DNA from: a virus
IMG/VR virus record: IMGVR_UViG_3300028283_000171
Coordinates: 1 to 38,568 of that record
Direction: 5' to 3' (one strand)
Length of the DNA: 38,568 nucleotides
Part shown: one piece after another, positions 2,231 through 38,568 of the stretch
Position numbering within the stretch: position 1 is the first letter of the stretch
Layout of the letters: the number at the start of each line of letters is the position of its first letter
Position numbers and translations under genes: made by a program
Notes under the pieces: model-generated
Databases searched by the model: none
Seen by the model: the letters and a program-made list of their open reading frames with translations, nothing else
Told to the model about the DNA's origin: nothing

Positions 2231-2262
2231 AAAGACCCCCAATCACATTGTCGGGGGTCTTT
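2231..2262 (-). terminator. Rho-independent terminator of the capsid gene
   Basis: A perfect 10-bp stem (AAAGACCCCC at 2231-2240, GGGGGTCTTT at 2253-2262) with a 12-base loop is followed on the minus strand by a T-run. It ends transcription about 40 bases after the capsid stop codon and before the endonuclease ATG, so the endonuclease would need its own promoter. Confidence 0.93.
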
Positions 2263-2303
2263 AGAGTCACTATGATAATTAGATTATCACTAGTTAGATT
2301 AGA

Positions 2304-4055
2304 TTAGATAAGTACACCGTTTGTGTCGGTAACTTTAATAGCCATAAATTGCTTCTCGGGAAAGAATCCGATATCAGCTACTGCATATCTTGATCTTATT
2401 AACATGCGTGGTGCCCATGTAGCTTCTGAAATTAAGCTGATAGACTGAGCCATCAAATAAGGGATAAAGAGAAGACCTGGTTGGTCAACTGAGTTCTTTC
2501 TTCCTAAATAGATGTAGTTATCATCCCATCTCATGTAAGGATCTACATAGATTGCGATTTGTCCAACATTACCCATTGGGTAGAGTTGTCCGTTGGTGTT
2601 CAACTTACCAGCGTTAACTGGGTTGATTGTATAACCAGCGATATCTTGGATAACGGAAGCTAAGTTACCGTTTGTTACCAAATATTGAGCTGGTCCTATT
2701 CTACCATCTGTTGCGATGAAGTTAGAGGCATTGTTCAATTTAGCGATAAGCTTTCTTTGAACTGAGTGAGTTGTTTCACCCATACCTGTACCAAGGTGTG
2801 TTAAGTAATCATCAACGTTTAAGTCGAATTTGGATGTTACACCATCAACGGCCTTAGGAGCTGTGTAAGAAACTCTGTTCTTAAGAGCGAGGTTTCTAAT
2901 TTTACCAACGATTTCCTTAGAAATAACTTGGGTAAGTTCGTTAATAAGAACTCCTTCAAGTTTTTGAACGATATCCATACCAGTTGCGGCCTTGATATCT
3001 TCAATTTGGGTTCTCTTCAATGTTGAGGAGATTTCAATGTCACCAACTTGTACTGACTTGGTAAATACGTCAGGACCGATTACACCTGGGTAGGTTTTTT
3101 CATCTTGGTATCTGGTCATTGGACCTTCCCAACCATTTTCCATATTTGATTGCCAGCCTGCGCTGAAACCTGGAATGTGATCTTCGAGTAAGGATACTAA
3201 TTCAATTGAGAATGTAGCACCTGATGCTGTGATACCAGTTGTGGTTAAACCAGTTAAAGTAGCAATACCTGATGCTAAATAATCAGTAATTGCTCCAGTT
3301 TGTGGGAATGTATTGAGAGCTGCGTCCCAAATATTTCCTGTTCCTGATGCGTCTTGTGGAACTAATGATCCAACTGAGAAGCCAGCTTGTCTGTAAATTC
3401 TGAACATTGGGTGTCCATCAATTCTGGAGAATCCTAAGAATTCCATCCAGTTTGTGTAAGTTACAGGAGGTGTAGAGAAATAAGTTACTGCTCCACCTGC
3501 ACCAATATGTACCCAACATCTCTTGGTTAAACCACCAACTCTTTCTTGAATGCTCAATAAATTGAGTTGTAATTGGATAGCTTGTTTTAAAAGTAAATCT
3601 GTAGCTGTGCTAGTTGTTTTTACTTTGAAAACTAATGGTCTTTGTCTTGCTTCAGCGTCCTCACGGATACCATCACCATAAGCATTGTCATACTTAAAGT
3701 CAACAAAGAGTAATTCGATTCTTGGAGAAGCAGTTGGTTTAACAGCTACTAAGTCCAAACCGATAGTTTGAGCGGCAATCTTCATTGCTACTGGGAGTAA
3801 GTTTTGAGCTACGTCACCTGAACCAATTGTTCCATCAGCTTGCCAAGTTGCACCTGGAATTGTGGAGATTACTGGAGCAAGAACTCTACCCATACCATTT
3901 TGATTTAATGTGGCATAACCAACATTTTCATTCATCTGATGCATTTCTGCATACTCGGACATCCATGCTCTTTTTTCATCATCAACTACTCTGAGAGCGT
4001 CTAAGATTGGTGCCCATTTTTTCATTGCTTTCGCACTGTCAACTATAAAATTCAT
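2304..4055 (-). CDS. 23: Major capsid protein, T4 gp23-like
   Basis: This 583-aa protein forms the hexameric capsid lattice. Several blocks match T4 gp23 as I remember it. GDIEISSTLKRTQIEDIKAA with the following GMD and EL..VIS.EI corresponds to the gp23 E-loop/helix region. The C-terminal block with WAPRMLIRSRYAVA corresponds to the strand near the gp23 C-terminus. T4 gp23 is cut by gp21 after about residue 65; the best matching place here is after MNE (residue 43), before N-V-G-Y-A-T, so the first 43 residues may be a removable delta-domain. It is a single-gene unit with its own promoter motif and a strong terminator. GC at its third positions looks higher than in neighbouring genes, as expected for a highly expressed protein. 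Confidence 0.93.
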   Translation of the reverse strand: MNFIVDSAKAMKKWAPILDALRVVDDEKRAWMSEYAEMHQMNENVGYATLNQNGMGRVLAPVISTIPGATWQADGTIGSGDVAQNLLPVAMKIAAQTIGLDLVAVKPTASPRIELLFVDFKYDNAYGDGIREDAEARQRPLVFKVKTTSTATDLLLKQAIQLQLNLLSIQERVGGLTKRCWVHIGAGGAVTYFSTPPVTYTNWMEFLGFSRIDGHPMFRIYRQAGFSVGSLVPQDASGTGNIWDAALNTFPQTGAITDYLASGIATLTGLTTTGITASGATFSIELVSLLEDHIPGFSAGWQSNMENGWEGPMTRYQDEKTYPGVIGPDVFTKSVQVGDIEISSTLKRTQIEDIKAATGMDIVQKLEGVLINELTQVISKEIVGKIRNLALKNRVSYTAPKAVDGVTSKFDLNVDDYLTHLGTGMGETTHSVQRKLIAKLNNASNFIATDGRIGPAQYLVTNGNLASVIQDIAGYTINPVNAGKLNTNGQLYPMGNVGQIAIYVDPYMRWDDNYIYLGRKNSVDQPGLLFIPYLMAQSISLISEATWAPRMLIRSRYAVADIGFFPEKQFMAIKVTDTNGVLI

Positions 4056-4132: not shown

Positions 4133-6556
4133 TTACCTTTGTAATCTTTTTAAATATGCTTCTATCTGATTATCACTAAGTTTGGTGTTATCAAATTTGT
4201 TATTACTTTCTTTTAACAAAGTCACCTTACCCATGTTTTTCTTTGCATATTCATGGAGATTTCTACTATTCCAGAAACTTTCCATTTTTTCCTCAGTCAA
4301 GTTTGTATAGAATTGTGCGCTACTTAAAATACTACCTTGTACTTCTGGTTTTAAGCTCTCCCAAATAGGTCTAAGATCGGCAGGGAGATTGTCGATCAAT
4401 GTTTCATTAAAGCTTCTTTCGGCTGTGGTTAATGCCTTAGCCATAATTGTTAACACTTCATTCTCGTTTGTATAATATTTGCTTTCGTTCATTGCAACTA
4501 CTACTTTTTCTTTATCTTCTTGTGAAAGGTTGTAATAAGCAGCCTTTTTTCTTTCAGATAAAAATTCTAAGAAATGAGGATTGTTGTCTTTAGAGGCCTC
4601 ACGTTTTTTGGACTCATTTATTTGCTTTAAGATCAATTTCTTTAATGTGTTTTCTGAATCATAAATTCTGTCACCAATGATTGATAACCTAGATTCTTGG
4701 ATTTCTTGAACTTCGCCAGTATCAGATAATTTAACAACAGCGATTCCATTATCAGCATTCATAGCTAAAATTTCACCTGTTTTATCATCATCTATTTTCA
4801 CAACTTGACCTGGAGTTAATTCAGATTTACTTTCCTCATCTTGGATTTCTTGTGCATTTACTCCTTCTACGTCAATATCCTCATCCTCTTCACCTTCAAG
4901 ACCTTGAGCCTGACCCTGAACTTGACCTTGGGCTTGTGCCTGTGGTTGTGCTCCTGGTTGTGCTTGACCTTGTGCTTGTGCTGGTTGAGCTTGAGTCATA
5001 TCATCCATAGTTTCGTCTTCATCGTAATATTTCGCAACTGAATCAGTTTTAAAATTACCCATTTTTTGTTCTGGTGAATCGATACCTTCTTTTATCATGG
5101 TTCCTTTTGAATTTAGTTTTTCAGCGATATACTTATTGTATTCGATGTTTTTATCTATTGCTTCAGCTAAATAATTACCGTAAGCGATGTTGTCTGTTAA
5201 ATTTTCAGCGATGTATTCTGAATACTTAATACTGTTATCAAGTTGTTCACCTACATATTCTGTGTATTTAATACTGTTATCAACGTGTTCGGCGATATAT
5301 TCAGCATATTTGATATTGTTATCAACATGTTCTGCAATGTATTCAGCGTACTTAATGTTGTTATCAACGTGTTCTGCGATGTATTCTGCGTAAGCGATAT
5401 TCTTTTCAAGATTCTCAGCTACATATTGTGAATAATCAATAGATTTATCAAGATTTTCAGCAATGTATTCTGAGTATTTGATAGTATTATCAACATTTTC
5501 AGCAATGTATTCTGAGAAATCAATTGATTTGTCTAATGTTTCAGCGATGTAATTTGCGTAATCGATAGATTTATCTACGGCTTCTGCAACGTATTCTGTG
5601 TAGTTAATTGCTTTTTCGAGCTCACCGGCTAAATAGTCGTTGTGTTCGATAATTTTCTCAGTCTTGTCTTTAGTTCTTTCCAATCTGAGTTCTAACTTTT
5701 CGTTGGTTTTTTTAATCTTTTTGTTTTCTTGGACTACTACCTGCATCGTTTCTGCTAAGTAATCAAGATAGGAGGCTATTTTCTGGAAGCCTTCTTGGAA
5801 GGAATCATACTTCTCATATAAATCATTCAACTTGGCTGGATCAAAGTCGCCCTTTGTAACGGCTTCATTGATTTCACTTTTTGCTTTTGTGATTTGGTCT
5901 GTTAAATAATTCGAGTACTTTTCCATCTGTTCTTTTGTTACAAATTCATTTTTATCCATATTGAACAAATCGTTTATTTTTGACTCGTCGGATATATCAT
6001 ATATCCTAAAGTTAGCACTCTCATTGAATCCCAACGATTCATTGATTGTGCGGAGTTCCATTTTAGCAGAACTAAATCCGGGATCAGCCACTGCATCATA
6101 GGTAAAAAGTTTTTTAATAGTTACTTCGCCATTAGACTCTGTTATACCTGCGGCGCGTGATGAAACAAAAATAGGGCATCCATCATCTATCAGCGCTTGG
6201 GCTTCTTTACCCCAGTGAGTATTTAGTAATCTAATTTCACCATCTACTCTATTCTTTTCTTTTACAAAAAAAGCACTTTCAACTGTATGAGATACCCTGC
6301 CTAAACTAGTATCAAAAACATCTGGATGATCAAATTCCCCATATACCACACCCAGTGTTTTCTTTCTCTCTAATAATTCTTCTAAATGGGGCAAAAATCT
6401 ATCAGCTTGATATATCCTGTCATTTCTATTTTTCACATTAAACTCTGTGAAAATACCACCAAGGATATACTGACGCTTCCCGGACGGAGCGACAGCTTCA
6501 TTTATTTTTTTTAAACCATTAATAGAATTTTCAACAATAAGAACGTTTTTTATCAT
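4133..6556 (-). CDS. 21: Fused prohead protease (gp21-like) and scaffold protein
   Basis: This 807-aa protein joins two jobs that T4 splits between gp21 and gp22. Residues 28-170 are the protease: NRNDRIY at 43-49, GEFDHP with the probable catalytic His77, FVSSR with Ser132/133, and YDAVADPGF (153-161) with the Asp. Residues 200-305 look coiled-coil. Residues 305-482 form about twelve 14-residue repeats. A Gln/Ala/Pro-rich linker (about 515-560) follows, then a small basic/acidic domain starting LTPGQVVKI and a helical tail. LKKINE-A near residue 20 fits the gp21 self-cleavage rule. The scaffold would line the prohead interior and be digested on maturation. A late-promoter motif lies 24 bases upstream; no clear terminator follows. 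Confidence 0.88.
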   Translation of the reverse strand: MIKNVLIVENSINGLKKINEAVAPSGKRQYILGGIFTEFNVKNRNDRIYQADRFLPHLEELLERKKTLGVVYGEFDHPDVFDTSLGRVSHTVESAFFVKEKNRVDGEIRLLNTHWGKEAQALIDDGCPIFVSSRAAGITESNGEVTIKKLFTYDAVADPGFSSAKMELRTINESLGFNESANFRIYDISDESKINDLFNMDKNEFVTKEQMEKYSNYLTDQITKAKSEINEAVTKGDFDPAKLNDLYEKYDSFQEGFQKIASYLDYLAETMQVVVQENKKIKKTNEKLELRLERTKDKTEKIIEHNDYLAGELEKAINYTEYVAEAVDKSIDYANYIAETLDKSIDFSEYIAENVDNTIKYSEYIAENLDKSIDYSQYVAENLEKNIAYAEYIAEHVDNNIKYAEYIAEHVDNNIKYAEYIAEHVDNSIKYTEYVGEQLDNSIKYSEYIAENLTDNIAYGNYLAEAIDKNIEYNKYIAEKLNSKGTMIKEGIDSPEQKMGNFKTDSVAKYYDEDETMDDMTQAQPAQAQGQAQPGAQPQAQAQGQVQGQAQGLEGEEDEDIDVEGVNAQEIQDEESKSELTPGQVVKIDDDKTGEILAMNADNGIAVVKLSDTGEVQEIQESRLSIIGDRIYDSENTLKKLILKQINESKKREASKDNNPHFLEFLSERKKAAYYNLSQEDKEKVVVAMNESKYYTNENEVLTIMAKALTTAERSFNETLIDNLPADLRPIWESLKPEVQGSILSSAQFYTNLTEEKMESFWNSRNLHEYAKKNMGKVTLLKESNNKFDNTKLSDNQIEAYLKRLQR
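5111..5644 (-). repeat. About twelve tandem 42-bp repeats encoding Y-x-E-Y-I-A-E units
   Basis: The scaffold part of the fused protein has units of exactly 14 residues with consensus YxEYIAExxDxxIx, from HNDYLAGELEKAIN (residue 305) to YNKYIAEKL (ending near 481). Two adjacent units, YAEYIAEHVDNNIK, are identical in protein. The periodicity is kept at the protein level with scattered DNA differences, so the array is old or under selection. Each unit contains [IV]-A-E, which fits the T4 gp21 cleavage rule. Confidence 0.95.
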
Positions 6557-6673: not shown

Positions 6674-8497
6674 TTAAAATGTAGGTGCTTGACCACCACC
6701 GCCTTGTGCTGGTGGGGCTTGTCCACCGCCCTGTGGTGGTGCTTGACCGCCTTGTGCACCGCCTTGTGCTCCTCCTTGAGCGCCGCCTTGTGCACCTCCG
6801 AATTGTGCTCCGCCGCCTGCTTGTGCTCCACCACCAAATTGAGCGCCGCCACCCATTTCAGCTCCACCTCCGAAGCCACCGCCTCCACCGAAGCCACCGC
6901 CTCCGCCACCAAATTCACCGCCACCAGCTTCACCTTCTGCTGCACCAGCTCCGCCCATTCTTTGACGTTCTAAAGCTTTATATTTATTGTTTTCTTCAAT
7001 ATCAGCGTCAGTAAATTTCATAATATGACGAACAATCCATTCAATACTTAAATAAGGTTTACCTTCAGCGTCTTGCAAAGATGAACTCAAAGTACTAGCA
7101 ATAGTTGCTCTTTCATTCATATTTTTTAAATGACGCCATTCTTCAAACATCGTATCAGAAATAAATTCCAATTTAAGAGCGTTATTAAAATCAATATCGT
7201 CTTTCAATTCTGGGAAATCCAAAATCATTTGAATCTTCAAAGGCTTAACTAAAATTTCTTTGAAAATTGTTCTAATTCTACAAATGAAATTCTTAAATTT
7301 AACTTCATCTCTTGTAATAGCTGCACTTGAATCATAAGCATATGAACCACCGCCATTATCTTCATCAAATCTTTGGAATGGTAATTTACTTGCTCTTTTT
7401 AAGATTTTATAAAACCATTGAAGAACAATATCTTCATTTAAATTTACTTGTGTTGGTTGTAAGATTTCAATATTTGGTGTTCCTGCAGTTCCATCTGGAA
7501 ACCAGAAGTCCTTGCTAAAAGGAATATTAGTTTGTCCATTAATAGATACAGTTCCCATTCTTTCATCCCATTGAACATCATCATGATATTCACTCATTAG
7601 TTCATAAATTTGTTGCTCAGCTTGTTGACGAGTTAACCCCCCTACTGGGATAACAAACTTTTTATAAATTGATGCTTGGTTAATATTATAAAGTAATCTT
7701 GCCTGCTCAATCATTTTTAACTGGTTGAAAGGTCTAATTAAATTTTCTACGTAAGAAGTTTCTCCGTATTCATTATTGTTAGAATAAGAAATATAAATAA
7801 TCTGCGAATCTAATAATATTCTTCTAAGAGCTGGATTATCAGGATGTTGAATCCATATCATTGTATTTGTATTTGGATCTGTAGCAACAATAAGAGTAAT
7901 AGGATCGATTGGTGCTAAGTCAATAATAGTTTTTTGTTTATCATCGTAGACTATTTCATATGAAATATAACCGTCTATAAGAAGATTTTTTAAATAATTC
8001 CAAGCAATTTGACCTTCGTTAAAATTAAAAGTATTTATAAGTTTGGAGAAATTTTCTTGATATTTTTGTCTTATAGTTTGTTCATAATTATCAGGTAAAT
8101 CTTTTACAAAACAGAATCTATTATTTTCGTCGTAAATTATACATTCATCCGCGATTTGCGTAATGAAATCTTTTATTTCATCTTTAATAGAATATTGTCT
8201 GAGAATTTTTCTTTTATCTAAATATGTTCTATCAAGATAAGCGATTGATTTTTTATCTAAGAATCTAGCGATAGTTTTCTTTGTAAATAAATCATACATA
8301 TTTGAACTATTAGGTTGGTAAAGAACATCTGTTGTTTCTTCATGTACACCAATAGAATAAGCATTTCTAATACGCATATCGTTATATTCTAATCCACCAA
8401 ACATAGTGGATAATCCTCTTAATATTCTGTTAAATAAACCAAAATTTGTTGTATTTGTTTGATTTTGATTTCCTCTATATCTATCATAGCTTGCCAT
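6674..8497 (-). CDS. 20: Portal vertex protein, T4 gp20-like
   Basis: This 607-aa protein forms the dodecameric ring for DNA entry and exit and starts prohead assembly. Its order of elements follows gp20: an N-terminal wing region with ADECIIYD; IDPITL near 197-202; LKMIEQARLLY (260-270); IYKKFVIPVGGLTRQQAEQQ (277-296) with the following LMSEYH; and DFWFPDGTAG (330-339). A helical stem follows with PFQRFDED (373-380). The last 80 residues (about 528-607) are a low-complexity Gly/Gln/Ala/Pro tail absent from T4 gp20. A late-promoter motif lies 22 bases upstream and a terminator follows. A shuffled partial copy of its middle part lies at 32837-33418. Confidence 0.92.
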   Translation of the reverse strand: MASYDRYRGNQNQTNTTNFGLFNRILRGLSTMFGGLEYNDMRIRNAYSIGVHEETTDVLYQPNSSNMYDLFTKKTIARFLDKKSIAYLDRTYLDKRKILRQYSIKDEIKDFITQIADECIIYDENNRFCFVKDLPDNYEQTIRQKYQENFSKLINTFNFNEGQIAWNYLKNLLIDGYISYEIVYDDKQKTIIDLAPIDPITLIVATDPNTNTMIWIQHPDNPALRRILLDSQIIYISYSNNNEYGETSYVENLIRPFNQLKMIEQARLLYNINQASIYKKFVIPVGGLTRQQAEQQIYELMSEYHDDVQWDERMGTVSINGQTNIPFSKDFWFPDGTAGTPNIEILQPTQVNLNEDIVLQWFYKILKRASKLPFQRFDEDNGGGSYAYDSSAAITRDEVKFKNFICRIRTIFKEILVKPLKIQMILDFPELKDDIDFNNALKLEFISDTMFEEWRHLKNMNERATIASTLSSSLQDAEGKPYLSIEWIVRHIMKFTDADIEENNKYKALERQRMGGAGAAEGEAGGGEFGGGGGGFGGGGGFGGGAEMGGGAQFGGGAQAGGGAQFGGAQGGAQGGAQGGAQGGQAPPQGGGQAPPAQGGGGQAPTF

Positions 8498-11190: not shown

Positions 11191-11387
11191 TTATCTTTAA
11201 TTATTTTTTGGAAATAATTTATTATTTGATTCTTTTAATCTATTTTTGTATCTTGTGGGATATTAGGCTTAGAATCTTATATGGCTTTATTTTGCTATGA
11301 TTGTATGTAGTTAAAAATGAGTGCCTCTAATGCTTTAGTAATCAAATCGAAACTTATACGCCCACTGAATATAAAAGTTTAAAAAAA
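11191..11387. other. Longest intergenic stretch; no gene seen
   Basis: Between the gp55-like gene and the terminator of the next gene there are about 200 AT-rich bases. I found no ORF with a credible start, no tRNA-like fold and no late-type motif. It probably holds the early or middle promoter of the sigma factor gene. Confidence 0.5.
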
Positions 11388-11418
11388 GTGCCCATATTTA
11401 TCATTAAAATATGGGCAC
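11388..11418 (-). terminator. Strong Rho-independent terminator
   Basis: A perfect 12-bp stem (GTGCCCATATTT at 11388-11399, AAATATGGGCAC at 11407-11418) with a 7-base loop is followed by seven Ts on the minus strand. It ends the unit of the 429-aa protein. Confidence 0.95.
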
Positions 11419-11438
11419 CCAGCTTAAACGCCTGATAA

Positions 11439-12728
11439 TTACTTCAATAAGGATTTCTTAAATTGAATTTTTTCGTCTTTTGTTTTATTAAATTCTTTGT
11501 ATAGATTGTGTCTGTGAACTAATAAATTATCAAAAGTTAATTTAAGAGATTTGTCTGATTCCAATAAAGCTTGTTCGTTCTTAAGTTCGTCAATTGCTTC
11601 GTTGATGTCTTTGATTTTAAGTTCAATTGATTTTTCTTTATCTTCTAAAGTCTTCAATTGTTTTAATTCCTTTGAAAGTTTGTTTTCGAAGAAATGTGTA
11701 AGATCGTAATCTAAATCTTTCTTTGTGTCGTTGATAAGTTCGTTAACTGATTCATAAGCGTAGAATGAACTGCCTGTACGAATATCTTTGTTATATAAAT
11801 ACATCTTATCTTTATAATTGAAAGCGTATGCTTCTAAATAAGGATTAAGAATATTTGTTACCTTCAAAGCTATATCTAATTCAACGAGGTTATTTAAGTT
11901 TTCTTTCAATGTGTTTAATAACATAAAATAGTCTCTCTTTAAATAAGGAATGATAGGCGAATTGAAAATGTTTTCCAAAGTTGTTTCTGGATCTAATTTT
12001 TCTTCGTTGATAAACATCGATTTGTCGTTCTTTGTTGATAAAGCCACAATAACGTTTTCGTCAATTTTAAAAGAAATTTTATCATTTTCGATTGTTGAAA
12101 GTTTCATACATTGCTCAAGGACTCTGATTTCTTTAATTTTATCTTCGTCTTCGATGTAGTCTTCTGCTAAAATTTGTTTTACTTCTTTATCGTCAATCAT
12201 AAACCATCTATCGCTTACAAATGCCATATAACCATTATCTACTTTTTCAACTATGGTGTAAACTTTTTCAGCTTTACCAGAGTTTGACATGTTTTGTCTT
12301 TCTAATGGTGATTTTGTTAAACCGAATACAAAGCTCTTAATTTGTGGTACCCAATCATACATACGAAGCTCATTAAGGATTGCTTCCATTCTTGCGTCAT
12401 CATCTGATTTATTGATAATTTCAAGAATAGTGTTCAAAGGTTGTCTGTATAACATGCCTTGATTTTCTCTTTCTACTCTTTTATACAAATCTTTCAATTC
12501 ATAAATCAAGGGGTAAGATTTCATTTCGCTATCTAATCCTTCTAAGAACATTTTTACATCTGTATCATAAGTGTATTTTAAAAGTTTTTCGTTAACAGTT
12601 TTAACAAGTTCTTTCTCAGAATATTGATCATAATTGATTATGAAACCTTCTACAAGACTTGAAATATCAGTCTGATCGAAAGTTAATCTGTTCTTGAAGT
12701 TAAATAATTCTAATTTAAAGTTTTTCAT
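11439..12728 (-). CDS. Hypothetical 429-aa protein with C-terminal coiled coil
   Basis: I do not recognise a family. Residues 1-330 are mixed helix and strand, including YTIVEKVDNGYMAFVSDRWF (about 158-177), which looks like a beta hairpin. Residues 345-425 are a long Lys/Glu/Leu helix, very likely a coiled coil. There is no signal peptide or membrane segment. It follows the 294-aa gene at 12749 with a 20-base gap and ends at a strong terminator, so the two are one operon. Its codons keep G/C at third positions more often than the neighbouring peptidase gene, which suggests good expression. A structural or scaffold-like role is a guess. Confidence 0.8.
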   Translation of the reverse strand: MKNFKLELFNFKNRLTFDQTDISSLVEGFIINYDQYSEKELVKTVNEKLLKYTYDTDVKMFLEGLDSEMKSYPLIYELKDLYKRVERENQGMLYRQPLNTILEIINKSDDDARMEAILNELRMYDWVPQIKSFVFGLTKSPLERQNMSNSGKAEKVYTIVEKVDNGYMAFVSDRWFMIDDKEVKQILAEDYIEDEDKIKEIRVLEQCMKLSTIENDKISFKIDENVIVALSTKNDKSMFINEEKLDPETTLENIFNSPIIPYLKRDYFMLLNTLKENLNNLVELDIALKVTNILNPYLEAYAFNYKDKMYLYNKDIRTGSSFYAYESVNELINDTKKDLDYDLTHFFENKLSKELKQLKTLEDKEKSIELKIKDINEAIDELKNEQALLESDKSLKLTFDNLLVHRHNLYKEFNKTKDEKIQFKKSLLK

Positions 12729-14312: not shown

Positions 14313-15320
14313 TTATTTATCTAATTTTGTAGCCCCGCCTTCTGCACTATTGAGGTTATAACGTGGATGTCCTTTAACGTAATTTCCAGCGTTACTTCCT
14401 AATCTGCCTGTGCTTGGAGTGTAATAAGCAAGAGTGTCCATTGATGGGTAATAATCAAACATTATAGGATTTAATTGAATGGCTACAGAGGCGTAAACTC
14501 TTTTACCATTTTCTAAATAAGACGCGTCGTGCATTACTTGTTGAGCTTTGTACAACCAATCGTGTTCGATTGCGTAATCAACATATAATTTCTGATCAGC
14601 GTAATTTAAAACGTAAATTCTATCCATGTAAATTTTACCAGTTGGTTTGCGTAATCCCATCCAAACCAATGCTCTTCCTTTAATCTTTTTATCGTTTTTA
14701 TCACTCATTAATATTAATAACTTACATCTTTCTGGATTCTTACAATAAATATCTAAATATTTTTGTGCGTAATCGTGTTTCATGCAAGAACTATTTAAAT
14801 CACCTTGACTTTGATTCTCATAATGATCCGAAAGATAATAATATCTTATTTCTTCCCCTTCAACTAATTTAAATTTAGCAGAAGCTTTACCCATTTCAGC
14901 CTTGAAATCATTTACAAACTTTTCAATTTCAACTTGTTTGTAAGTGTCTGGGAATAATCTGTTTACTATCTTACCAACAGACATTTCTTGTCTTAATTTA
15001 GAGTTATAACAATCTCCACACGGAATCATCATATCTTGTAAATAACCAGGAACTTCAGTAGCTTTAGCTGCAGGCATAAAAGATATTTTATCTTCTTTGT
15101 CTTTTTTTGATCTATCACAATCTAAATAAGATAGTTCAAATTTATTATGACCTTTTACTGTTGGTTGTTTAGAAGCATCTAATTCTAAAATTTTTTTAGC
15201 TATAGGTGAATCTATAACACTTAATATCTTAGCAAGAACCTCAGAAATAAAAAACGAGATTTTCTTTTTTTCTTTATCGTCTGCTTCAAATAAAAATCCG
15301 TTATAGTTATACAATGCCAT
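14313..15320 (-). CDS. Tandem paralogue 4: putative internal head protein
   Basis: The 335-aa member of a four-gene tandem family has unknown activity. Shared landmarks are LSYLDCD then SFMPA (79-84), GEEIRYYY (155-162), SSCM (177-180), YLDIYCKNPERCKLLIL (188-204), KGRALVW (214-220), YMDRIY (231-236), DWLYK (254-258) and a C-terminus with TGRLGS (304-309). The invariant Cys, Asp and Arg positions could be an active site, but I cannot name the enzyme. Residues 5-13, NYNGFLFEA, resemble the T4 capsid-targeting sequence and offer a gp21-type cut after LFE. I infer packaging in the head. It is last in the operon, 16 bases after paralogue 3. Confidence 0.8.
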   Translation of the reverse strand: MALYNYNGFLFEADDKEKKKISFFISEVLAKILSVIDSPIAKKILELDASKQPTVKGHNKFELSYLDCDRSKKDKEDKISFMPAAKATEVPGYLQDMMIPCGDCYNSKLRQEMSVGKIVNRLFPDTYKQVEIEKFVNDFKAEMGKASAKFKLVEGEEIRYYYLSDHYENQSQGDLNSSCMKHDYAQKYLDIYCKNPERCKLLILMSDKNDKKIKGRALVWMGLRKPTGKIYMDRIYVLNYADQKLYVDYAIEHDWLYKAQQVMHDASYLENGKRVYASVAIQLNPIMFDYYPSMDTLAYYTPSTGRLGSNAGNYVKGHPRYNLNSAEGGATKLDK

Positions 15321-15336
15321 TTAATAATAGTTTATT

Positions 15337-16398
15337 TTATTTGTCTCTAGCGAGTCTTTTTGTACCACCATTAGCTTTATGTAATTGGTATCTTTCCATT
15401 GTTTCACCAGTAAATGGACTTTTAGTGGGTTTGCCTCTAATTGTTGATAATCTTCCAGTATCGGGGGTGTAAAAACACATTGTATCAATATAAGGATAAC
15501 GAGCAAATATACCGTGATTTTTTAATCTTGTTGTAATACCTTTATCACAAACTTGTCCGTCTTTTACAAAGGTGTAAACTTCTTTAGATTGATTTGGTTT
15601 GTACCACCAACCGTGCTCTTTAGCGTAATCTATAAAAATATTTACATCTGATTCATTTGTATAATAAATTCTATCCATCAATACTCCCTTTGTTGGGTTG
15701 CCTGGTATATCAACGACAAAGCAATCAAACCAAATTATGGCTCTTGCCACTAATTTCCCTTCTTTGTTCAACATTATTAACATGCCAACCTGTTCGGGAT
15801 TTTGGCAATAAATATCAAAAAATGATTGTTTTTCTGGTTGTTTAAGACAAGACTTCATAAGAGGAGTTCTAACATCGAGTACTCCTTCATCGGGTGCTTC
15901 TTCCATACCTGGATGAGGATTGTAATAAGATTTAACGTGATACCATTTACATATCTCTTCTCCTCTTACCATTTTTAATTCGTAATTGCCTTGATCCAAT
16001 TTACCTTTGATAAGATGTACAAAATTTTCAAGGTCTTTTGATCCAGCGTATTTAGGTAAAGTTCTGGTAACAAAGGCACCAATTCTCATAGATTGTCTGC
16101 CTTTTTCTCCCCATACTGGACTATTTGGTTTTGGATTAACTAAATCTTCTTCTGTTATACCAGCTAATCTACCAACCCTGTTAGCTGGGAGAACACTAAT
16201 AGTATCAATATCGTTAGTTAAATCAGCGTAAGAATTTTGAAATTTAATATCAGACTTAGGTAGATCTAAAAGTTCTTTTGATATTTTGGAGTCTATCGAA
16301 TTTAATAGTTCAGTAAGTTTAGGTGAAAAAAACATTGGAAGTTCTTTCACGTTAATATCACTTTCATATACATAACCATTAAAATTTTTAAGTCCCAC
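15337..16398 (-). CDS. Tandem paralogue 3: putative internal head protein
   Basis: The 353-aa member has the same order of motifs: LPANRVGRLAG, GEEICKWYHVKSYY, LMKSCLKQPE (Ser-Cys-Leu where the others have Ser-Cys-Met), FFDIYCQNPEQVGMLIML, ARAIIW, LMDRIYYTNESD, GWWYK and YTPDTGRLS. It is the most divergent of the four, replacing GRALVW by ARAIIW. The N-terminus MGLKNFNGYVYES fits the targeting pattern F-x-x-Y-V-x-E-S. C-terminal residues are basic (RLARDK), as in the other copies. It lies 17 bases after paralogue 2. Confidence 0.8.
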   Translation of the reverse strand: MGLKNFNGYVYESDINVKELPMFFSPKLTELLNSIDSKISKELLDLPKSDIKFQNSYADLTNDIDTISVLPANRVGRLAGITEEDLVNPKPNSPVWGEKGRQSMRIGAFVTRTLPKYAGSKDLENFVHLIKGKLDQGNYELKMVRGEEICKWYHVKSYYNPHPGMEEAPDEGVLDVRTPLMKSCLKQPEKQSFFDIYCQNPEQVGMLIMLNKEGKLVARAIIWFDCFVVDIPGNPTKGVLMDRIYYTNESDVNIFIDYAKEHGWWYKPNQSKEVYTFVKDGQVCDKGITTRLKNHGIFARYPYIDTMCFYTPDTGRLSTIRGKPTKSPFTGETMERYQLHKANGGTKRLARDK

Positions 16399-27384: not shown

Positions 27385-28494
27385 ATGATTCTAAATATTG
27401 AGAGCCAAACAGAACTTTCAGGATTCTACGTAGTTTACAATCGAACTGTTATCAACGAAAAAGAAGGAATATACGGCATATCACATTTAATAGAACACTT
27501 GATGAGTCATAATTTCAATGATACTTTAGTAGAAGAGTTCCAAAATTCAGGGTTAGCTTGGAATGCGTACACTTCACCAACTAATATAGTATTCTATTTA
27601 AGTGGTTTAGATAAATACGTTACCAAATATAAATATAAGTTTTTAAATAAGTTATCAAAAATAAACATAGAACAAAAAGATTTCGAATTAGAGAAAACTG
27701 TTCTTCTCGAAGAGTACACGTCTATATTCAATATGCAAAGTCCTTCACATCTTTTAAATTTGTATAGAAAGAAATTGAACTCTTATAATTCAATAGGAAA
27801 AAAGAAAGATATAGAGAAAATAACATTAGATAATTGTAAAGAATATTTTAACATATATTATAGTAAACCTTCTAAAATTATCAATGTTTCCAAAAATAAT
27901 CCTTTTGTGTCTGATATAGAATTTAACGATTTTAAAAATGATTATTATTACAATTATACTAATGGTTCTAATAAAGATATCGATAAACATAAAAGTCTTT
28001 TAAATAAATCATCAATAATATACTTATCACCAGTAATAGAAGATAACTGGGCCACCGTGTTTTTTATAAATTATTTGTTATCAAATGGTATCAGTTCTCC
28101 TTTATATAAAAATATAAGAAAAAAAGCAGGATTGGCTTATTATATAAGATGTACAGTAGATAGATTAAGTGATTATTCTGGAATTAATATAATATCAACC
28201 GAAACAGATGACGATAAAGTTGATAAATTAATGTTACTTTTAGACGAAACTTTATCAGATTTAAGTTTCTTGACAAAATCTAAATTTGATCAGGTTAAAA
28301 ACTCAATAATTAATAAAATTGATACAGTAGATATAAACAGACATAGTAATGTTGAAACCTATATAAAACCAGAAACTTGGGCAATAGAGAATAATATTCA
28401 CGATATAACATTAGATAAAGTAATAGAAACTTATAAAAAATATTACAATGTTGATAACTTCTATAAAAGTGTAGATAAAAGAGAATTTATGTAA
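27385..28494 (+). CDS. M16-family zinc peptidase
   Basis: The 369-aa protein has the inverted zinc motif HLIEH at 34-38 (HxxEH) inside ISHLIEHLM, followed by the distal Glu in LEKTVLLEEY (102-111), as in pitrilysin/insulinase/MPP enzymes. The C-terminal half carries RKKAGLAYYIR, the Arg/Tyr site of the second M16 domain. At 369 residues it is one M16 A+B half-unit, like bacterial PqqL-type or MPP-beta-like peptidases, and may dimerise. No signal peptide is seen, so it would be cytoplasmic or packaged. Its promoter matches the late type, which hints at a role in assembly or lysis-phase host control. An earlier ATG at 27378 opens only a 7-codon frame. Confidence 0.85.
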   Translation: MILNIESQTELSGFYVVYNRTVINEKEGIYGISHLIEHLMSHNFNDTLVEEFQNSGLAWNAYTSPTNIVFYLSGLDKYVTKYKYKFLNKLSKINIEQKDFELEKTVLLEEYTSIFNMQSPSHLLNLYRKKLNSYNSIGKKKDIEKITLDNCKEYFNIYYSKPSKIINVSKNNPFVSDIEFNDFKNDYYYNYTNGSNKDIDKHKSLLNKSSIIYLSPVIEDNWATVFFINYLLSNGISSPLYKNIRKKAGLAYYIRCTVDRLSDYSGINIISTETDDDKVDKLMLLLDETLSDLSFLTKSKFDQVKNSIINKIDTVDINRHSNVETYIKPETWAIENNIHDITLDKVIETYKKYYNVDNFYKSVDKREFM

Positions 28495-32536: not shown

Positions 32537-32806
32537 ATGGCAAAGATTAAAAAAGTAGACGAATTATTCGAATATCCACATGATATTCCTATAAACCTGG
32601 ACAAAGATAGATTGTACGCATCAGGATTAAATTCTAAACCAGGCGAAAGGTTGAGGAATTTTCTATCACCATTCTTCGCTTATTTTGATATTATAGAAGA
32701 CGATGATATTTCCTATGAAGATAAAGAGAAACTCCTTAAAGGACTCACTAAAGAATGTAAAGAACTCTTGCCGTACATAAAGTATTGGTTAAGGAAAATA
32801 GAATAA
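32537..32806 (+). CDS. Small hypothetical protein
   Basis: The 89-aa protein contains the helical stretches ERLRNFLSPFFAYFDII and DKEKLLKGLTKECKELLPY. No signal peptide is present. It starts 2 bases after the T9SS-tagged gene, which suggests translational coupling, and ends at a strong terminator. Function unknown; it may act with the secreted protein, for example as an immunity or chaperone factor, but this is only context. Confidence 0.65.
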   Translation: MAKIKKVDELFEYPHDIPINLDKDRLYASGLNSKPGERLRNFLSPFFAYFDIIEDDDISYEDKEKLLKGLTKECKELLPYIKYWLRKIE

Positions 32807-32810
32807 AAAA

Positions 32811-32829
32811 AGAGGACTTTAAGTCCTCT
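32811..32829 (+). terminator. Bidirectional Rho-independent terminator
   Basis: An 8-bp stem (AGAGGACT at 32811-32818, AGTCCTCT at 32822-32829) is extended by A/T pairs and followed by Ts. It ends the plus-strand cluster and, on the other strand, the portal-like pseudogene. Confidence 0.9.
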
Positions 32830-32836
32830 TTTTTGT

Positions 32837-32971
32837 TTATTCTAAAATAGCGTGCCAATTACTAACTGGCACAACAAACTTTTTATATATCGCCGCATTA
32901 TTCTTTGAATACATCATTTTAGCTTGTTCAATTAAACTTTTTTGTCTTTTGGTAGGAAACCAATAATCTTT
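32837..32971 (-). pseudogene. Portal-like remnant downstream of an in-frame stop
   Basis: The 44 codons after the TAA at 32972 stay in frame and read KDYWFP, as in portal KDFWFP, then IEQAKMMYSKNNAAIYKKFV and VPV. The second part copies portal residues 263-285, which in the portal come before the KDFWFP block. So the sequence continues the upstream portal-like ORF but has a re-duplicated earlier segment attached to its end. It ends at a TAA at 32837-32839. Confidence 0.8.
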
Positions 32972-33418
32972 TTAATATGGAATATTTGTATTATTATCTT
33001 CGTTCCAATTTTCTTCACCGTAAGGATCTAAATCAGAATAAACCCTATTAATAGGTGTTTCTCCGAATGTATCTAATCCGCCATCACCTGCCCACTCAAC
33101 ATCTTCGTGGTACTCACTCATTAACTTTTTTATCTGATCTTCAGCTTCTTCTCTTGATAAACCGTTAACAGGAATAGTGAATTTTCTCACCTTTGGTCCT
33201 TCATAAGTCGAATTCCAATCTATTTTATCATCACCATCATATTCATGTATATCTTTTTTTACATCAATAGTCTTCTTAACAAATAAATCATACATATTAC
33301 TATGTAAAGCATTATAAGCTTTAGGAATTTCCATAATGGCTTCACCCAAAGGTGAAATAATAGGTTCCTTTTCTTTTTTAATAATTCCCATCTTCTTTAG
33401 AATATCTTTTATTTTCAT
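32972..33418 (-). CDS. Truncated, rearranged portal-like ORF
   Basis: The 148-aa product is built from portal pieces. Residues 34-51 (AYNALHSNMYDLFVKKTI) match portal 46-76 with a short deletion. Residues 77-109 (VRKFTIPVNGLSREEAEDQI and LMSEYHEDVEW) match portal 278-310, the likely clip-domain part. Residues 143-148 (NTNIPY) match portal 322-327, where a TAA now ends it. About 226 portal residues between the first two blocks are missing. An inserted LDPYGEENW (130-138) is a motif shared with unrelated ORFs. It overlaps the RNase H stop (ATGA) and has an AGGAGGT Shine-Dalgarno sequence, so it may well be translated. Decoy, regulator or dead gene are all possible. Confidence 0.75.
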   Translation of the reverse strand: MKIKDILKKMGIIKKEKEPIISPLGEAIMEIPKAYNALHSNMYDLFVKKTIDVKKDIHEYDGDDKIDWNSTYEGPKVRKFTIPVNGLSREEAEDQIKKLMSEYHEDVEWAGDGGLDTFGETPINRVYSDLDPYGEENWNEDNNTNIPY

Positions 33419-34380
33419 AAGTTTACCTCCTTTTTCATTAATTTATATAAATGCGGTGGCATAGACGTTTCATCCAACTTCACTAAAGTCAAATTTCTTG
33501 TTAATCTATCACTCATCATTTCGTTCATGCTATTATCTTTTAGTCTTTTATATAGTTTTATATGATCTATAATTCTATCTCTAAACTCGATTGAGTTAAA
33601 ATCAATAGGTTCAGAATGTGTTTCTTTATATGTGTCGTATATTTTAAGAATTCCACTTTTACCTATACCTCTATCACCTTTCATATAAACTGATTTGATA
33701 TTATCTTTGTTGTGTCCCATTATTTTCATAAAGAGTTCTAATTCAGAATTAATAAGAGAAGTCTTTCTCGTTCTTGTAAAATTATCAAGAAATGAAAGAA
33801 ATTCAGTTTCATTATTATCTTCAAACATATCGTCAACGTAAGTGTCCTTTACATATTTTGTGAAAATTTGATAGTGTTCGGGTATAAATACTCTATCATC
33901 AGTCATCTTATAGTTATACATTATATTAATATATCTCTTATCTAGGTCGTAATTAATAAGTTGTAAAAGGTCACTATCGTTAGACATTAAGAAATTTGAT
34001 TGTCCTTTGTTATTGAGGGTCTTCATGACGTAGGCGATAAGATCGTCGCCTTCGAGATTTTCCATTTGGAATTGTACGCAGTTCTTTTTAGTTTTGAGAT
34101 ATTCTTTAAGTTTAGTATATTCACCGAATACGAAGTCCCAATCTACTTTATCGTCTCGTTTTCTTGTCCCTTTGTATCCTTCGAAAAATTCTTTTCTCCA
34201 GTTTCTAAAACTATCTGATATGAAGTATATTTTATCGAAAGGGTATAATTTTGTAAGTGTGTGGTAATCTCTTTCTATAACGTTGTATAATTCTGATACT
34301 AATATTTTATTCTTGTGAAGTATGTGAACAGATTTCATTAATAAAAAATTTCCGTCCACGACGAGATTCAATTTGATCAT
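33415..34380 (-). CDS. rnh: FEN-family 5'-3' exonuclease / RNase H, T4 Rnh-like
   Basis: The 321-aa protein removes RNA primers and flaps during lagging-strand synthesis. The FEN/PIN-like acidic site is visible: VVDGNF with Asp9, ISDSFRNWRKEFFEGYKGTR with Asp56, ENLEGDDLIAY with Glu110, Asp112 and Asp113, and MSNDSDLLQ with Asp135 and Asp137. A helix-hairpin block KGDRGIGKSG follows near 235-244, as in flap nucleases. Length is close to T4 Rnh (305 aa). A late-type motif lies 18 bases before its ATG, which is unexpected for a replication gene. Its last codons encode the Shine-Dalgarno sequence of the portal-like ORF. Confidence 0.88.
   Translation of the reverse strand: MIKLNLVVDGNFLLMKSVHILHKNKILVSELYNVIERDYHTLTKLYPFDKIYFISDSFRNWRKEFFEGYKGTRKRDDKVDWDFVFGEYTKLKEYLKTKKNCVQFQMENLEGDDLIAYVMKTLNNKGQSNFLMSNDSDLLQLINYDLDKRYINIMYNYKMTDDRVFIPEHYQIFTKYVKDTYVDDMFEDNNETEFLSFLDNFTRTRKTSLINSELELFMKIMGHNKDNIKSVYMKGDRGIGKSGILKIYDTYKETHSEPIDFNSIEFRDRIIDHIKLYKRLKDNSMNEMMSDRLTRNLTLVKLDETSMPPHLYKLMKKEVNL
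33425..33430 (-). promoter_or_regulatory. Unusual strong Shine-Dalgarno sequence
   Basis: Minus-strand GGAGGT lies 6 bases before the ATG of the portal-like ORF. Almost all other genes here have A-rich leaders without such a site. It overlaps codons of the RNase H C-terminus (KKEVNL). Confidence 0.6.
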
Positions 34381-34488: not shown

Positions 34489-35610
34489 GTGATAAAAGAT
34501 AATCGAATGGTAAATGTTAAAGTTGAAAAAAGGACTTTGGAACATTATTCCAAATTTGGAGAAATAAAAAACAATCATATAAATATAGAAGTTAAAAATT
34601 TATATAAAAGTTCAAAAGAAAAAATTGTTGTTGAATGTGATATTTGTCATATAGAAAAAACAATAATATTTTCATATTATTATAATAATGTACAGAATGG
34701 TGGATATTACACTTGTATAAAATGTAAAGATATTAAATCAAAAAAAACGCATATGAAAAAATATGGCAAATTCTTTAATAATAGAGATAAGTGTAAAATA
34801 ACAAATCTTGAAAAATATGGATGTGAAAATGTTTCTAGTTCACAATTAATCAAAGATAAGAAAAAAGAAACTAACTTAAAAAATTGGGGGGTTGAAAATG
34901 TTTTTCAATCGGATATTATAAAAGACAAATTGAAGCAAACTTGTTTAGATAAATACGACGTGGAGCATCCATTACAAAATGATGAATTATTTGAAAAATC
35001 GAGGAAAACATGTTTTATGAATAATGGGGTAGAATATCCAATGCAATCTGATAAAGTTATGAAAACCATGATGGATAATAATTTAGAAAAATATGGCAAA
35101 GAGTTTTATACTCAGACAGATAAATATAAGAATGATGTTAAGATAAGTAATACTGATAAATATGGAACTGAATGGTATATGTCATCTAAAGAATTCAAAA
35201 ATAAATCAAAAATTACTAATATGGAAAAATACGGCGTAGAATATAATATGCAGAATGAAAAAATATATATGAAAGCACAAATTAATGGATTTAAAGCAAA
35301 AATTCATAAGATGGCGGGTCTTTTTTACAGAGGAGAAAATGAAAATGATTTTTTAAACATGTGTTATGATAAAAATATCAAAATAAAACAAGGATTAAGA
35401 TTCTCTTACATATTTGATGGAAAAAATAGATTTTATTTTAGTGATTATTTTTTCCCAGAAAAAAATCTTATAATAGAAATTAAAAGTAGTTATTATTATA
35501 AAAAATATTACGATATGAATATAGAAAAAATGAATAGTGTTATAAAAGAAGGGTATGCTTTCATCTTTATAATTGATAAAAATTATCAGGAATTTAATAA
35601 TTATATATAG
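34489..35610 (+). CDS. Homing-type endonuclease with helical DNA-binding repeats
   Basis: The 373-aa protein has an N-terminal zinc finger (C50-x2-C53, C76-x2-C79). About eight 23-residue repeats follow (87-266), with units such as NLEKYGCENVSSSQLIKDKK (106-125) and NLKNWGVENVFQSDIIKDKL (129-148), ending each time in K-x-T or similar. A C-terminal PD-(D/E)XK-like nuclease contains FSDYFFPEKNLIIEIKS. The repeats probably track along DNA. It is one of three selfish endonucleases here and sits between RNase H and the 641-aa gene. It uses a GTG start; an ATG six codons later (34507) is an alternative. Confidence 0.78.
   Translation: MIKDNRMVNVKVEKRTLEHYSKFGEIKNNHINIEVKNLYKSSKEKIVVECDICHIEKTIIFSYYYNNVQNGGYYTCIKCKDIKSKKTHMKKYGKFFNNRDKCKITNLEKYGCENVSSSQLIKDKKKETNLKNWGVENVFQSDIIKDKLKQTCLDKYDVEHPLQNDELFEKSRKTCFMNNGVEYPMQSDKVMKTMMDNNLEKYGKEFYTQTDKYKNDVKISNTDKYGTEWYMSSKEFKNKSKITNMEKYGVEYNMQNEKIYMKAQINGFKAKIHKMAGLFYRGENENDFLNMCYDKNIKIKQGLRFSYIFDGKNRFYFSDYFFPEKNLIIEIKSSYYYKKYYDMNIEKMNSVIKEGYAFIFIIDKNYQEFNNYI
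34747..35286 (+). repeat. Eight approximately 69-bp repeats in the endonuclease gene
   Basis: Repeats of about 23 residues have consensus N-x-E-K-Y-G-x-E-x-x-x-Q-[ST]-x-x-x-K-x-K-x-K-x-T. They are diverged in DNA. They correspond to a DNA-reading helical array known in phage endonucleases of this kind. Confidence 0.8.
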
Positions 35611-35614
35611 ATTC

Positions 35615-37540
35615 ATGATTACGAAATACAATATTTTTGAGAGTGTCGATGGATGGATCGATCTTCTTGATTATTTAAATGAAAATGATTTAAAAAATTT
35701 AAATAAAGTAACTGACGCGTATAAATACCGTGATAGTATTGATAATAATATCGCTGTAAAAGAACATTTATCATATATGTTAAAAGGAAAACTTATAAAG
35801 ATTCATTATGATAATAATTATATAGAAGGAGAAGTGCCTTCTGAAATTAGTTTCGGATCAAATCAACCATTCATTAACATTAGTAATAAAGAAGATCGTC
35901 TTATGAGATTTAGAACTATTGATTTTTGTACAAATCCGAATATGATTCAGGTTTACTCTGAAATTGAAAAAAAACCAAGAGTGAGATGGTTTAAGCACGG
36001 TAAATTACAAAATGATACTTTAAATGAATACGTCGAATTTGTACCAGTTAAATACGAGTACGGTGGTTATTATGGAGGCAAAGATGTTTTTAGATTACAA
36101 AATTACGCCAAAATGGCCAGGATAGGGTTATTACAGAATTTCCTCAAAAGTGGCGATTGGTATAGAATAAGGTTCAATGATTATAAGCATATTGTTATTA
36201 AAATAGAACAAATTAGATACGGTGGTGATGTAGTATCGATAGGATATTTTATGGAATATAATAAAGGGGAAATTCGTGGATCAAAAAATGGACATAGTGT
36301 TATAGTTATAGATACATGGAAAGACGATAGAGATATAGTAATTGAACACATAGAACCAATGGATAATATATTAAATAGGAGAAAATTCAGAGAATTAAAT
36401 ATACAAGTTGGTGATAATGTTAAAGTTTCAAATCCTGGTTTAGAAGATAAGATATTTAAGATAACTAGTGTGAATAAAGAAGAACATAGTTATTTTTCCA
36501 AATCATGGACTGTTTCATATCCAGAATTAACAAAGAAAAATCATAAAATATTACCAATAGATATAGTTGAAAATTTAGGAAGAGATTTGATTAATAAAGA
36601 ACTAGATCCTTATGGTGAAGAAGTATGGGAAAGTAAAAAAAGTAAGAAAAGAAACGCTACTAGAATAAAAATGGCTGAGATAGATCCTTACGGTGAAGAA
36701 GACTGGGGATGGGACGTCAAAATAAATGACGACGACTTTAAAGACAAATATATAGTCTTCAAAAAGAAGTTTTTAGGTAGTTACGATTATTATTTTGCTT
36801 TTTTAACGAGTCATTATCAAATACTTTCCTTTGGGGGATCACAAGATTTGAACATAATTAAAAAACATCAAGTTTTATCACCTATATCAGAAAGAGAAAT
36901 AGAAAGAATTAAAAAAGATAAAATAGAATTAGTGCCTTATCATTGGGTAGGAAAATATAGTAAAAACGAGTTCGGAAATTCAGAAAGAATGCCATATTCA
37001 TCACTCAAAAAAGATGTTCTATTTCTAGATCAAGATTATATGGATAATTATTTATATATGAATGAGTCTGTTAACGAAGAATACGTCGAATTTAATAAAA
37101 CAGGTGAAGAATTGGAATTAAAACGTTGGCATAATTATTTTGAAGATTATATAGTTCCTTTTTTAAGAAAAGGTGAATGGTACAGAATAATATGTGAAAT
37201 ACCATATGATAAAAATGATTACGATGTACTTGAACGACCAGGAAAAGAAAATAAACTTATCACTAAAAGAAGAAAGAAAATGTTGTTATATGTTTTTAGA
37301 TTCCATTCTACTCATAGTGATTGGGCATGGGATATAATACAATGTGATAGAATGTACAAACATGGTGAGATCGAAGAAGTCAACCCATTCAAAGATTATA
37401 TACAAATGGATAGATTAAGAAATTATCAAAATGTAAAAATTCAACACATAGTCAATCCAGAGATAAATAGAAAAAGAGAAGAGATGAGATTGAGATTACA
37501 CCCTAACGATCCATACGGAGAGGAGGAATGGAATGATTAA
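35615..37540 (+). CDS. Hypothetical 641-aa protein with internal repeats and three DPYGEExW motifs
   Basis: I do not recognise a family. The start at 35615 follows the endonuclease stop by 4 bases; an upstream in-frame start at 35573 would overlap it and adds no conserved sequence. The N-terminus MITKYNIFESVDGW recalls a capsid-targeting sequence. Two related blocks, EYVEF with a later KSGDWYRIRF (first half) and EYVEF with RKGEWYRIIC (second half), show an internal duplication. DPYGEEVW and DPYGEEDW lie between the halves, and DPYGEEEW is almost at the C-terminus. The layout looks like two or three short genes fused. The last motif's codons supply a GGAGG-like ribosome site for the next gene. 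Confidence 0.72.
   Translation: MITKYNIFESVDGWIDLLDYLNENDLKNLNKVTDAYKYRDSIDNNIAVKEHLSYMLKGKLIKIHYDNNYIEGEVPSEISFGSNQPFINISNKEDRLMRFRTIDFCTNPNMIQVYSEIEKKPRVRWFKHGKLQNDTLNEYVEFVPVKYEYGGYYGGKDVFRLQNYAKMARIGLLQNFLKSGDWYRIRFNDYKHIVIKIEQIRYGGDVVSIGYFMEYNKGEIRGSKNGHSVIVIDTWKDDRDIVIEHIEPMDNILNRRKFRELNIQVGDNVKVSNPGLEDKIFKITSVNKEEHSYFSKSWTVSYPELTKKNHKILPIDIVENLGRDLINKELDPYGEEVWESKKSKKRNATRIKMAEIDPYGEEDWGWDVKINDDDFKDKYIVFKKKFLGSYDYYFAFLTSHYQILSFGGSQDLNIIKKHQVLSPISEREIERIKKDKIELVPYHWVGKYSKNEFGNSERMPYSSLKKDVLFLDQDYMDNYLYMNESVNEEYVEFNKTGEELELKRWHNYFEDYIVPFLRKGEWYRIICEIPYDKNDYDVLERPGKENKLITKRRKKMLLYVFRFHSTHSDWAWDIIQCDRMYKHGEIEEVNPFKDYIQMDRLRNYQNVKIQHIVNPEINRKREEMRLRLHPNDPYGEEEWND
36605..36706 (+). repeat. 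Two DPYGEExW-coding copies 54 bases apart
   Basis: Copies at 36605-36628 and 36683-36706 encode DPYGEEVW and DPYGEEDW. Further copies lie at 37508-37531 and 38341-38364, and on the minus strand at 33005-33028. Codons differ between copies at several third positions. Confidence 0.85.
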
Positions 37541-38132: not shown

Positions 38133-38568
38133 AGTAGGAGACATAGTTAAATGTATTCTTCCAGCGGGAATTTTAATACAGGATAAAATTTATATTATCA
38201 CTGGAAAAAATGGAGCGTTATGTTTTGTTAATGAAATTCAAGGCGGATGGCTTCCAAAAAGATTTGAAAAAATTGAAGGTGAAGAACTAGAAGAAATTAG
38301 AAAAAAACAAGAATTATTGAAATCTGTTCATATGCAAGATGATCCATATGGTGAAGAAAATTGGGTAGGTGAATCTAGACTATTAACAGAATTTAAAGAT
38401 CATAGTGTTTTACTTGATATTATTCACAATAATATTCTAAAAAGTGAAGCTGAATTTGGTTTGATAATTAAACCAGAAGACGCTGAATTAGAGAAAAAAG
38501 TTATTATGTCTGTATTTAATGATTATAAATTCAAGAAATGGAACGAATATTCCAACGATGAATATATG
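38125..38568 (+). CDS. Hypothetical protein, cut by window edge
   Basis: The 148 codons visible stay open to the edge. The first 45 residues look like a small beta-barrel (KVGDIVKCILPAGILIQDK, then IYIITG and WLPKRFE), close to SH3/KOW-like folds. An acidic helix follows, then DPYGEENW (73-80), then residues with a possible targeting-like GESRLLTEF (82-90). The overlap with the HD gene suggests a common operon. Function unknown. Confidence 0.7.
   Translation, partial: MIKVGDIVKCILPAGILIQDKIYIITGKNGALCFVNEIQGGWLPKRFEKIEGEELEEIRKKQELLKSVHMQDDPYGEENWVGESRLLTEFKDHSVLLDIIHNNILKSEAEFGLIIKPEDAELEKKVIMSVFNDYKFKKWNEYSNDEYM

Follow-up and report, generated by a model that had tools for sequence, protein, structure and literature searches.

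Next to its RNase H gene, the 38,568-base stretch of viral DNA analysed here (the window, a complete IMG/VR record) carries a real accessory gene for a stand-alone, rearranged clip domain of the portal protein. This clip gene is one member of a set of mini-genes that are built from the phage's own virion proteins. The right part of the window (28-38.6 kb) is about 89% identical to LR756501, an uncultured huge phage of 735,411 bp (735 kb), in which the orthologue of the clip gene is intact, 173 aa long and found in the same position after RNase H.

Extent and architecture of the clip gene

The clip gene occupies positions 32837-33418 of the minus strand, 194 codons counting both of its stops, and aligns with the LR756501 orthologue end to end. 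An internal TAA (32972-32974, minus strand), which is present neither in LR756501 nor in a second orthologue on IMG/VR contig 3300042261_000976 (L114), leaves a 148-aa ORF in the window (32972-33418, minus strand, from the ATG to this TAA). The frame is identical on either side of the TAA and ends as ...HAILE-TAA at 32837. A strong terminator hairpin, consisting of an inverted repeat with flanking A/T runs (32806-32837; MFE -20.4 kcal/mol, z -5.9), abuts this full-length end and also serves the convergent gene at 32537-32806. As the frame runs through to 32837 and the terminator is located right there, the natural clip gene is 582 nt long, not 447 nt. The 148-aa product proposed in an earlier note on this DNA does exist as an ORF in the window, but it is not the natural gene.

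The upstream neighbour is an RNase H-like 5'-3' exonuclease gene (33415-34380, minus strand; phrog_107), whose stop overlaps the clip-gene ATG. The same arrangement is found in LR756501 and in L114, where the clip protein has 139 aa. The strong Shine-Dalgarno sequence that the earlier note had pointed out, AGGAGG at 33421-33430 (minus strand), is real, though it lies within the 3' end of the RNase H gene and doubles as coding sequence for it. AGGAGG is found upstream of only 13 of the 1,013 LR756501 genes, and the clip gene is one with the full motif, in the window as well as in LR756501. About 90% of the LR756501 genes have no Shine-Dalgarno-like motif at all, and such a scarcity would fit a Bacteroidota host. 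Beyond the RNase H gene lies a homing-endonuclease-like ORF (34489-35610, plus strand; phrog_12131, DUF7487). Elsewhere in the window, positions 27385-28494 (plus strand) encode a Peptidase M16 (insulinase-like) protein, in this case encoded by a phage.

The source of the segments is the full-length T4-type portal gene of the window (6674-8497, minus strand), whose product could be aligned to T4 gp20 (3ja7) with E = 2e-28. A tblastn search of the region with the window portal returned three separate stretches, and their E-values (3e-17, 7e-10 and 1e-4) place the resemblance far above chance. The minus strand does contain, in frame, every portal segment listed in the earlier note, and their order is indeed altered, being A-C-D-B where the portal has A-B-C-D; the similarity is clear in protein and weak in DNA, as had been claimed. 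Pfam (E 0.01) and PHROG searches with the window clip ORF gave nothing significant.

On the minus strand, segment A (AYNALHSNMYDLFVKKTI; 33266-33319; E 1e-4) resembles portal residues 60-76 in the N-terminal arm. Segment C (RKFTIPVNGLSREEAEDQIKKLMSEYHEDVEW; 33092-33187; portal 279-310) contains the first clip strand, the docking loop, the clip helix and the second strand. It is followed by DPYGEENW (33005-33028), a copy of the motif DPYGEExW at the place of the portal's inner clip loop, by NTNIPY (32975-32992) directly before the TAA, and by segment D, KDYWFP (32954-32971; portal 329-334), which is the end of the clip. Segment B (SLIEQAKMMYSKNNAAIYKKFVVPV; 32864-32938; portal ~258-285) has been moved to the C-terminus and comprises the stem helix and a second copy of the first clip strand, which is therefore duplicated and reads KFTIPV or KKFVVPV at the two ends of C-D-B. 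The reported second copy of the whole IEQAK..IYKKFVVPV stretch needs to be narrowed accordingly: the strand occurs twice, but the IEQAK stretch only once. The A-C-D-B order together with the repeated strand points to a partial tandem duplication that has lost its ends, i.e. to a circular permutation.

In T4 gp20, residues 255-278 and 359-377 form the stem and residues 279-358 the clip, which is the attachment site for the packaging ATPase and later for the neck; the clip-tip residues N291, M292, R295 and K296 probably contact the gp17 ATPase (PMC4493910). The alignment with gp20 assigns segment B to the first stem helix and C-D to the clip. The ATPase-contact residues align with GGLTRQQ of the portal, for which the mini-gene reads NGLSREE, and the clip loop and helix are kept in the mini-protein (GLSREEAEDQIKKLMSEY versus GLTRQQAEQQIYELMSEY in the portal). 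In its clip loop, helix, strands and stem helix the mini-protein is thus homologous to the T4-type portal (PF07230). However, it differs from gp20 in being encoded by a separate gene beside RNase H and in having no wing, crown or N-terminal domain, so that it amounts to the clip, one stem helix and a short piece of the N-terminal arm. It also differs in its permuted order, in its duplicated first clip strand and in the inner clip loop, which faces the DNA in gp20 and is here swapped for a linker with DPYGEENW. Structure prediction of the L114 copy gave a pLDDT of 46.5 from the single sequence and of 45.6 with a 29-row alignment that included portal pieces, both too low for the model to be used.

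Conservation of the clip gene and of other virion-protein fragments

A Pfam search with the L114 copy, which is 39-44% identical to the other orthologues, matched Portal_T4 (PF07230; model positions 207-264 of 433, E = 2e-11). Profile searches with the stand-alone clip copies returned mainly ordinary portals, and the set of orthologues is small. On contig 3300000230_000210 (L212) the RNase H gene is present and the clip gene is absent, which makes the latter accessory.

Between the window and LR756501, the dN/dS of the clip gene is 0.145 as a whole and 0.136 in the clip part. In the 44 codons past the window TAA it is 0.089, with 11.5 synonymous versus 7.5 nonsynonymous changes (Fisher p = 6e-6, calculated from rounded counts). 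For the same pair of sequences it is 0.019 in the RNase H gene and 0.006 in the portal gene, whose product is nearly identical in the two (dN 0.003). As the clip gene has about eight times the dN/dS of the RNase H gene, and frequent indels, the constraint on it is moderate. Nevertheless, the intact orthologues and the low dN/dS, which extends beyond the TAA, show that the gene is maintained and speak against debris. In the orthologues the frame is preserved, with no scatter of stops, contrary to the alternative that the earlier note had allowed for, and the conserved frame and purifying selection that it had suggested looking for were found in LR756501 and L114. Its description of the product as clip-domain-like is borne out by the same orthologues, their conserved synteny and the Portal_T4 match. 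The TAA in the window is either a recent loss in the window phage or a sequence error. Unless it is the latter, the window copy, which is deprived of segments D and B, may be crippled, and a premature TAA could point to a dispensable gene.

Other huge phages also have stand-alone clip genes, which are more distant from the window copy. LR756502 encodes a 153-aa clip copy, for which an IMG/VR search gave no relatives, and LR756500 has a 189-aa ORF that contains a clip-like stretch. A second clip mini-gene of LR756501 (668797-669096, 99 aa) retains GLTRQQAEQ in a form identical to that of the portal, and in the clip ORF of LR745206 (291877-292131, 84 aa) segment D comes before C. An IDWNSTYEGP-like stretch that is absent from the portal (IDWNSTYEGPKVR; 33185-33223, minus strand) precedes the first clip strand in the copies of the window and LR756501. 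Comparison with the other mini-genes revealed counterparts in the same place, LDWSKIGPQDR in LR756502 and IHWSSTTAQPRM in LR745206. These common stretches argue for common ancestry of the mini-genes and not for repeated accidents. In both LR756502 and LR745206 the clip mini-gene stands beside a gene for an N-terminal capsid fragment and a T5orf172 (GIY-YIG-like) gene, and this neighbourhood is conserved (LR745206 288966-296092; LR756502 313292-320894). We also considered a connection between the N-terminal capsid fragments and the Gol peptide region of T4 gp23, an idea that was dropped, as the alignment with solved capsids covered only residues 346-565.

The clip genes belong to a wider repertoire. 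When 1,015 mechanically called LR756501 genes were compared all against all, with the DPYGEExW tag masked, at least 17 short genes turned out to copy parts of virion proteins, among them capsid, portal, protease/scaffold and sheath. No protein has more short, distant, partial paralogues than the major capsid protein, with 6; the portal has 4 short partial paralogues and the head protease/scaffold has 3. Distant short partners were found for 5 of the 16 structural-module genes versus 27 of 383 genes from outside the module (200 aa or longer; p = 0.006). The capsid is again the top source of fragments in LR756502 (3) and LR745206 (2). In LR756501, stand-alone copies of parts of the portal, capsid, head protease and sheath are scattered through the genome; some are located at 142020-143048, 15148-15435, 668797-669096 and 276342-276932, and others, in a list that is not exhaustive, at 542326-542892, 552409-552918, 11314-11850 and 553796-554236. 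Most of the partial copies have orthologues in IMG/VR contigs, and the dN/dS of fragment genes with close relatives is 0.03-0.28.

Several fragments could be assigned to their parents: LR_553796 to the sheath, through its C-terminal domain (PF17482, 9e-8), LR_11314 to the prohead protease (2e-5) and LR_15148 to the C-terminus of the portal (9e-6). The L113 relative of LR_596429 is a tail sheath. On L126 (IMG/VR 3300027896_000352; 75-3256) there are nine mini-genes in a row, every one of them tagged. Six correspond to various regions of the capsid protein, with one of the six also matching the head protease, and a further one corresponds to the sheath C-terminus. In the window, the Gp23 capsid protein (PF07068, 2e-25) is encoded at 2304-4055 and the head maturation protease (phrog_207) at 4133-6556 (minus strand). 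The latter continues into a long region of scaffold-like character that is rich in YxEYIAExxDxxI repeats, which also occur in the tagged protein LR_619760.

The DPYGEExW tag

The earlier note had missed DPYGEENW in the clip gene (33028-33005), the phage-wide tag to which it belongs and the wider repertoire of virion fragments. LR756501 contains 109 copies of DPYGEE, where about 0.009 would be expected by chance, and 103 of them read DPYGEExW. The copies are situated near the C-terminus in 41 cases, near the N-terminus in 19 and internally in 49. In the non-overlapping gene set of this genome, 90 of about 1,015 genes (~9%) carry the tag. It is present on 6 of the 17 virion fragments (p = 0.002) and, as DPYGEENW, in the clip-gene copies of both the window and LR756501. 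Further window copies are located at 36605-36628, 36683-36706, 37508-37531 (+) and 38341-38364 (+), three of them in a 655-aa ORF (35573-37540; no Pfam match) and one in an ORF that starts at 38125.

The six residues are spelled by 49 different codon combinations and every match is in the coding frame, which makes an independent mobile repeat at the DNA level an unlikely source of the tag. One of the spellings is mildly favoured, however, which suggests that ancestry is shared to some extent. In relatives the tag is retained in 30 of the 32 aligned cases, several of which are just 26-57% identical overall. The likeliest reading of DPYGEExW is a docking signal that a putative shared partner recognises. 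The tag was not found in five other huge phage records (LR756502 and LR745206 are among the tag-less genomes). No description of it was found in the open-access literature, where the sole match to the string is an unrelated paper on a yeast peptide.

A scan of bacterial genomes produced 35 stretches with one match each, mostly lone ones, and no tag-rich bacterial genome. Three lake Bacteroidota MAGs (L217, L239 and L244) share an identical 3.3-kb contig with a tagged 96-aa ORF. This contig is probably misbinned phage DNA and, as such, a clue to the host.

Possible functions of the clip protein

The reading that we rank first, with a probability that we put slightly short of even, is that the clip protein is a soluble mimic of the portal docking surface and competes for the partners of portal clips. 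With the wing and crown missing, and with a tagged linker that would occupy the DNA channel, the mini-protein is expected to be soluble and to stay out of portal rings. Such a free clip would display the loop and the helix and compete with whatever docks on portal clips. The likeliest partner would be a host portal sensor of the SpbK type, and a packaging ATPase or neck protein, the phage's own or a competitor's, would be nearly as likely. In Bacillus, SpbK docks on the clip of the YonE portal by binding the clip helix, and it is the clustering of SpbK on the 12-fold ring of clips that turns on its NADase (PMC12847820; PMC11984713). A non-clustered clip might therefore occupy a sensor of this type without firing it. 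The clip loop and helix that SpbK or the terminase would use are retained in the mini-protein. SpbK-type sensing has been shown for Bacillus only and would be hypothetical in the host of the window phage. We rank this reading first because it would also give the capsid fragments a reason: in another case, a capsid protein is reported to be the direct activator of a bacterial immune system (PMC9712102). The virion-fragment mini-genes in general may be decoys. A broader proposal is that the dispersed repertoire, made up of conserved peptides from the capsid, portal, head protease and tail sheath, forms a modular decoy or interference system. The virion fragments would serve as bait, and the tag DPYGEExW, which many of them have in common in one clade, would be read by a common partner and recruit a shared effector; we regard it as possible but more doubtful than the competition by the clip protein itself.

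If the competition reading is right, the closest parallel is Nip of phage Phi3T, which prevents portal-triggered abortive infection and counters the portal-sensing SpbK by binding SpbK itself (PMC11984713). However, the clip protein has no sequence kinship with Nip, and the role of decoy would fall to the docking domain of the portal itself. The difference from phage satellites should also be considered. Small proteins of satellites redirect or block the assembly of the helper phage by acting on its structural proteins, whereas the mini-genes described here are encoded by a giant phage, derive from its own virion proteins, comprise many pieces and have a common tag.

A less probable alternative is that the free clip binds the large terminase or the neck, and so times the phage's own packaging or blocks the portals of a co-infecting phage. 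In the alignment with T4 gp20, the motor-contact loop corresponds to the loop that the mini-protein has kept, the change of the portal's QQ to EE in the mini-protein could shift affinity, and competitors would be within reach, as the stand-alone clip is 64% identical to its own portal and 68% to that of a related phage group. However, the capsid, sheath and protease fragments of the repertoire would then need separate explanations.

We give still less weight to the possibility that the tagged mini-proteins co-assemble with their parent virion proteins inside the prohead and are packaged, with the tag as a packaging or core-binding signal, although the retention of peptides could be useful for co-assembly into heads and the fragments do derive from head and tail proteins. 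An N-terminus resembling the T4 capsid-targeting sequence was found in 17 of the 90 tagged versus 42 of the 925 other proteins (p = 4e-6), an enrichment that is merely suggestive since the pattern was ad hoc and was written after some tagged proteins had been viewed. Against co-assembly, the clip sits outside the head, and such an N-terminus is missing from the clip protein as well as from many of the tagged proteins, which are enzymes or hypothetical proteins.

That the clip gene is functionless recombination debris tied to homing endonucleases, as the earlier note had considered, is improbable. Gene fragments are associated with homing endonucleases in T4-like phages, and here too nuclease ORFs lie near several of the fragment genes. 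DUF7487/homing-type ORFs are found near the clip gene in both the window and L114. L315 and L316 (both 1-3429) have a capsid gene, a 367-aa nuclease-like ORF (so called by eye, Pfam giving no firm match) and a 165-aa ORF for a capsid fragment one after the other, an arrangement that hints at a way in which fragments may form. In LR756501, the capsid fragment at 730457 is overlapped by a homing endonuclease, and another lies 1.7 kb from the protease fragment at 240978, in a genome about 10% of which is within 2 kb of a fragment. Nuclease-driven recombination is thus plausible as the origin of the fragments, and that part of the earlier proposal stands. It does not account for the maintenance of the frames. 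The TAA of the window copy would be in keeping with debris, but in contrast to the T4-like fragments the frames here are intact in relatives, with the same neighbours or parts, and the low dN/dS of the clip gene, also past the TAA, and of its sister fragments contradicts debris. Finally, a silent donor cassette that generates diversity by gene conversion of the portal was rejected as extremely improbable: one genome does hold several partial portal and capsid copies, but the DNA of the clip gene is far too diverged from the portal gene for homologous recombination, its pieces are reordered, and the copies are ORFs constrained at the amino-acid level.

Phage portal and capsid proteins are often what bacterial immune systems detect. 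Free-standing virion pieces under selection would, if the competition reading is true, be a novel kind of counter-defence or of phage-phage warfare, which the small size of the clip protein makes open to a direct test. The tag, which is retained while its flanks diverge, offers a handle for pulling out its reader, and it may indicate that the largest known phages have a system for targeting or assembly which has yet to be described.
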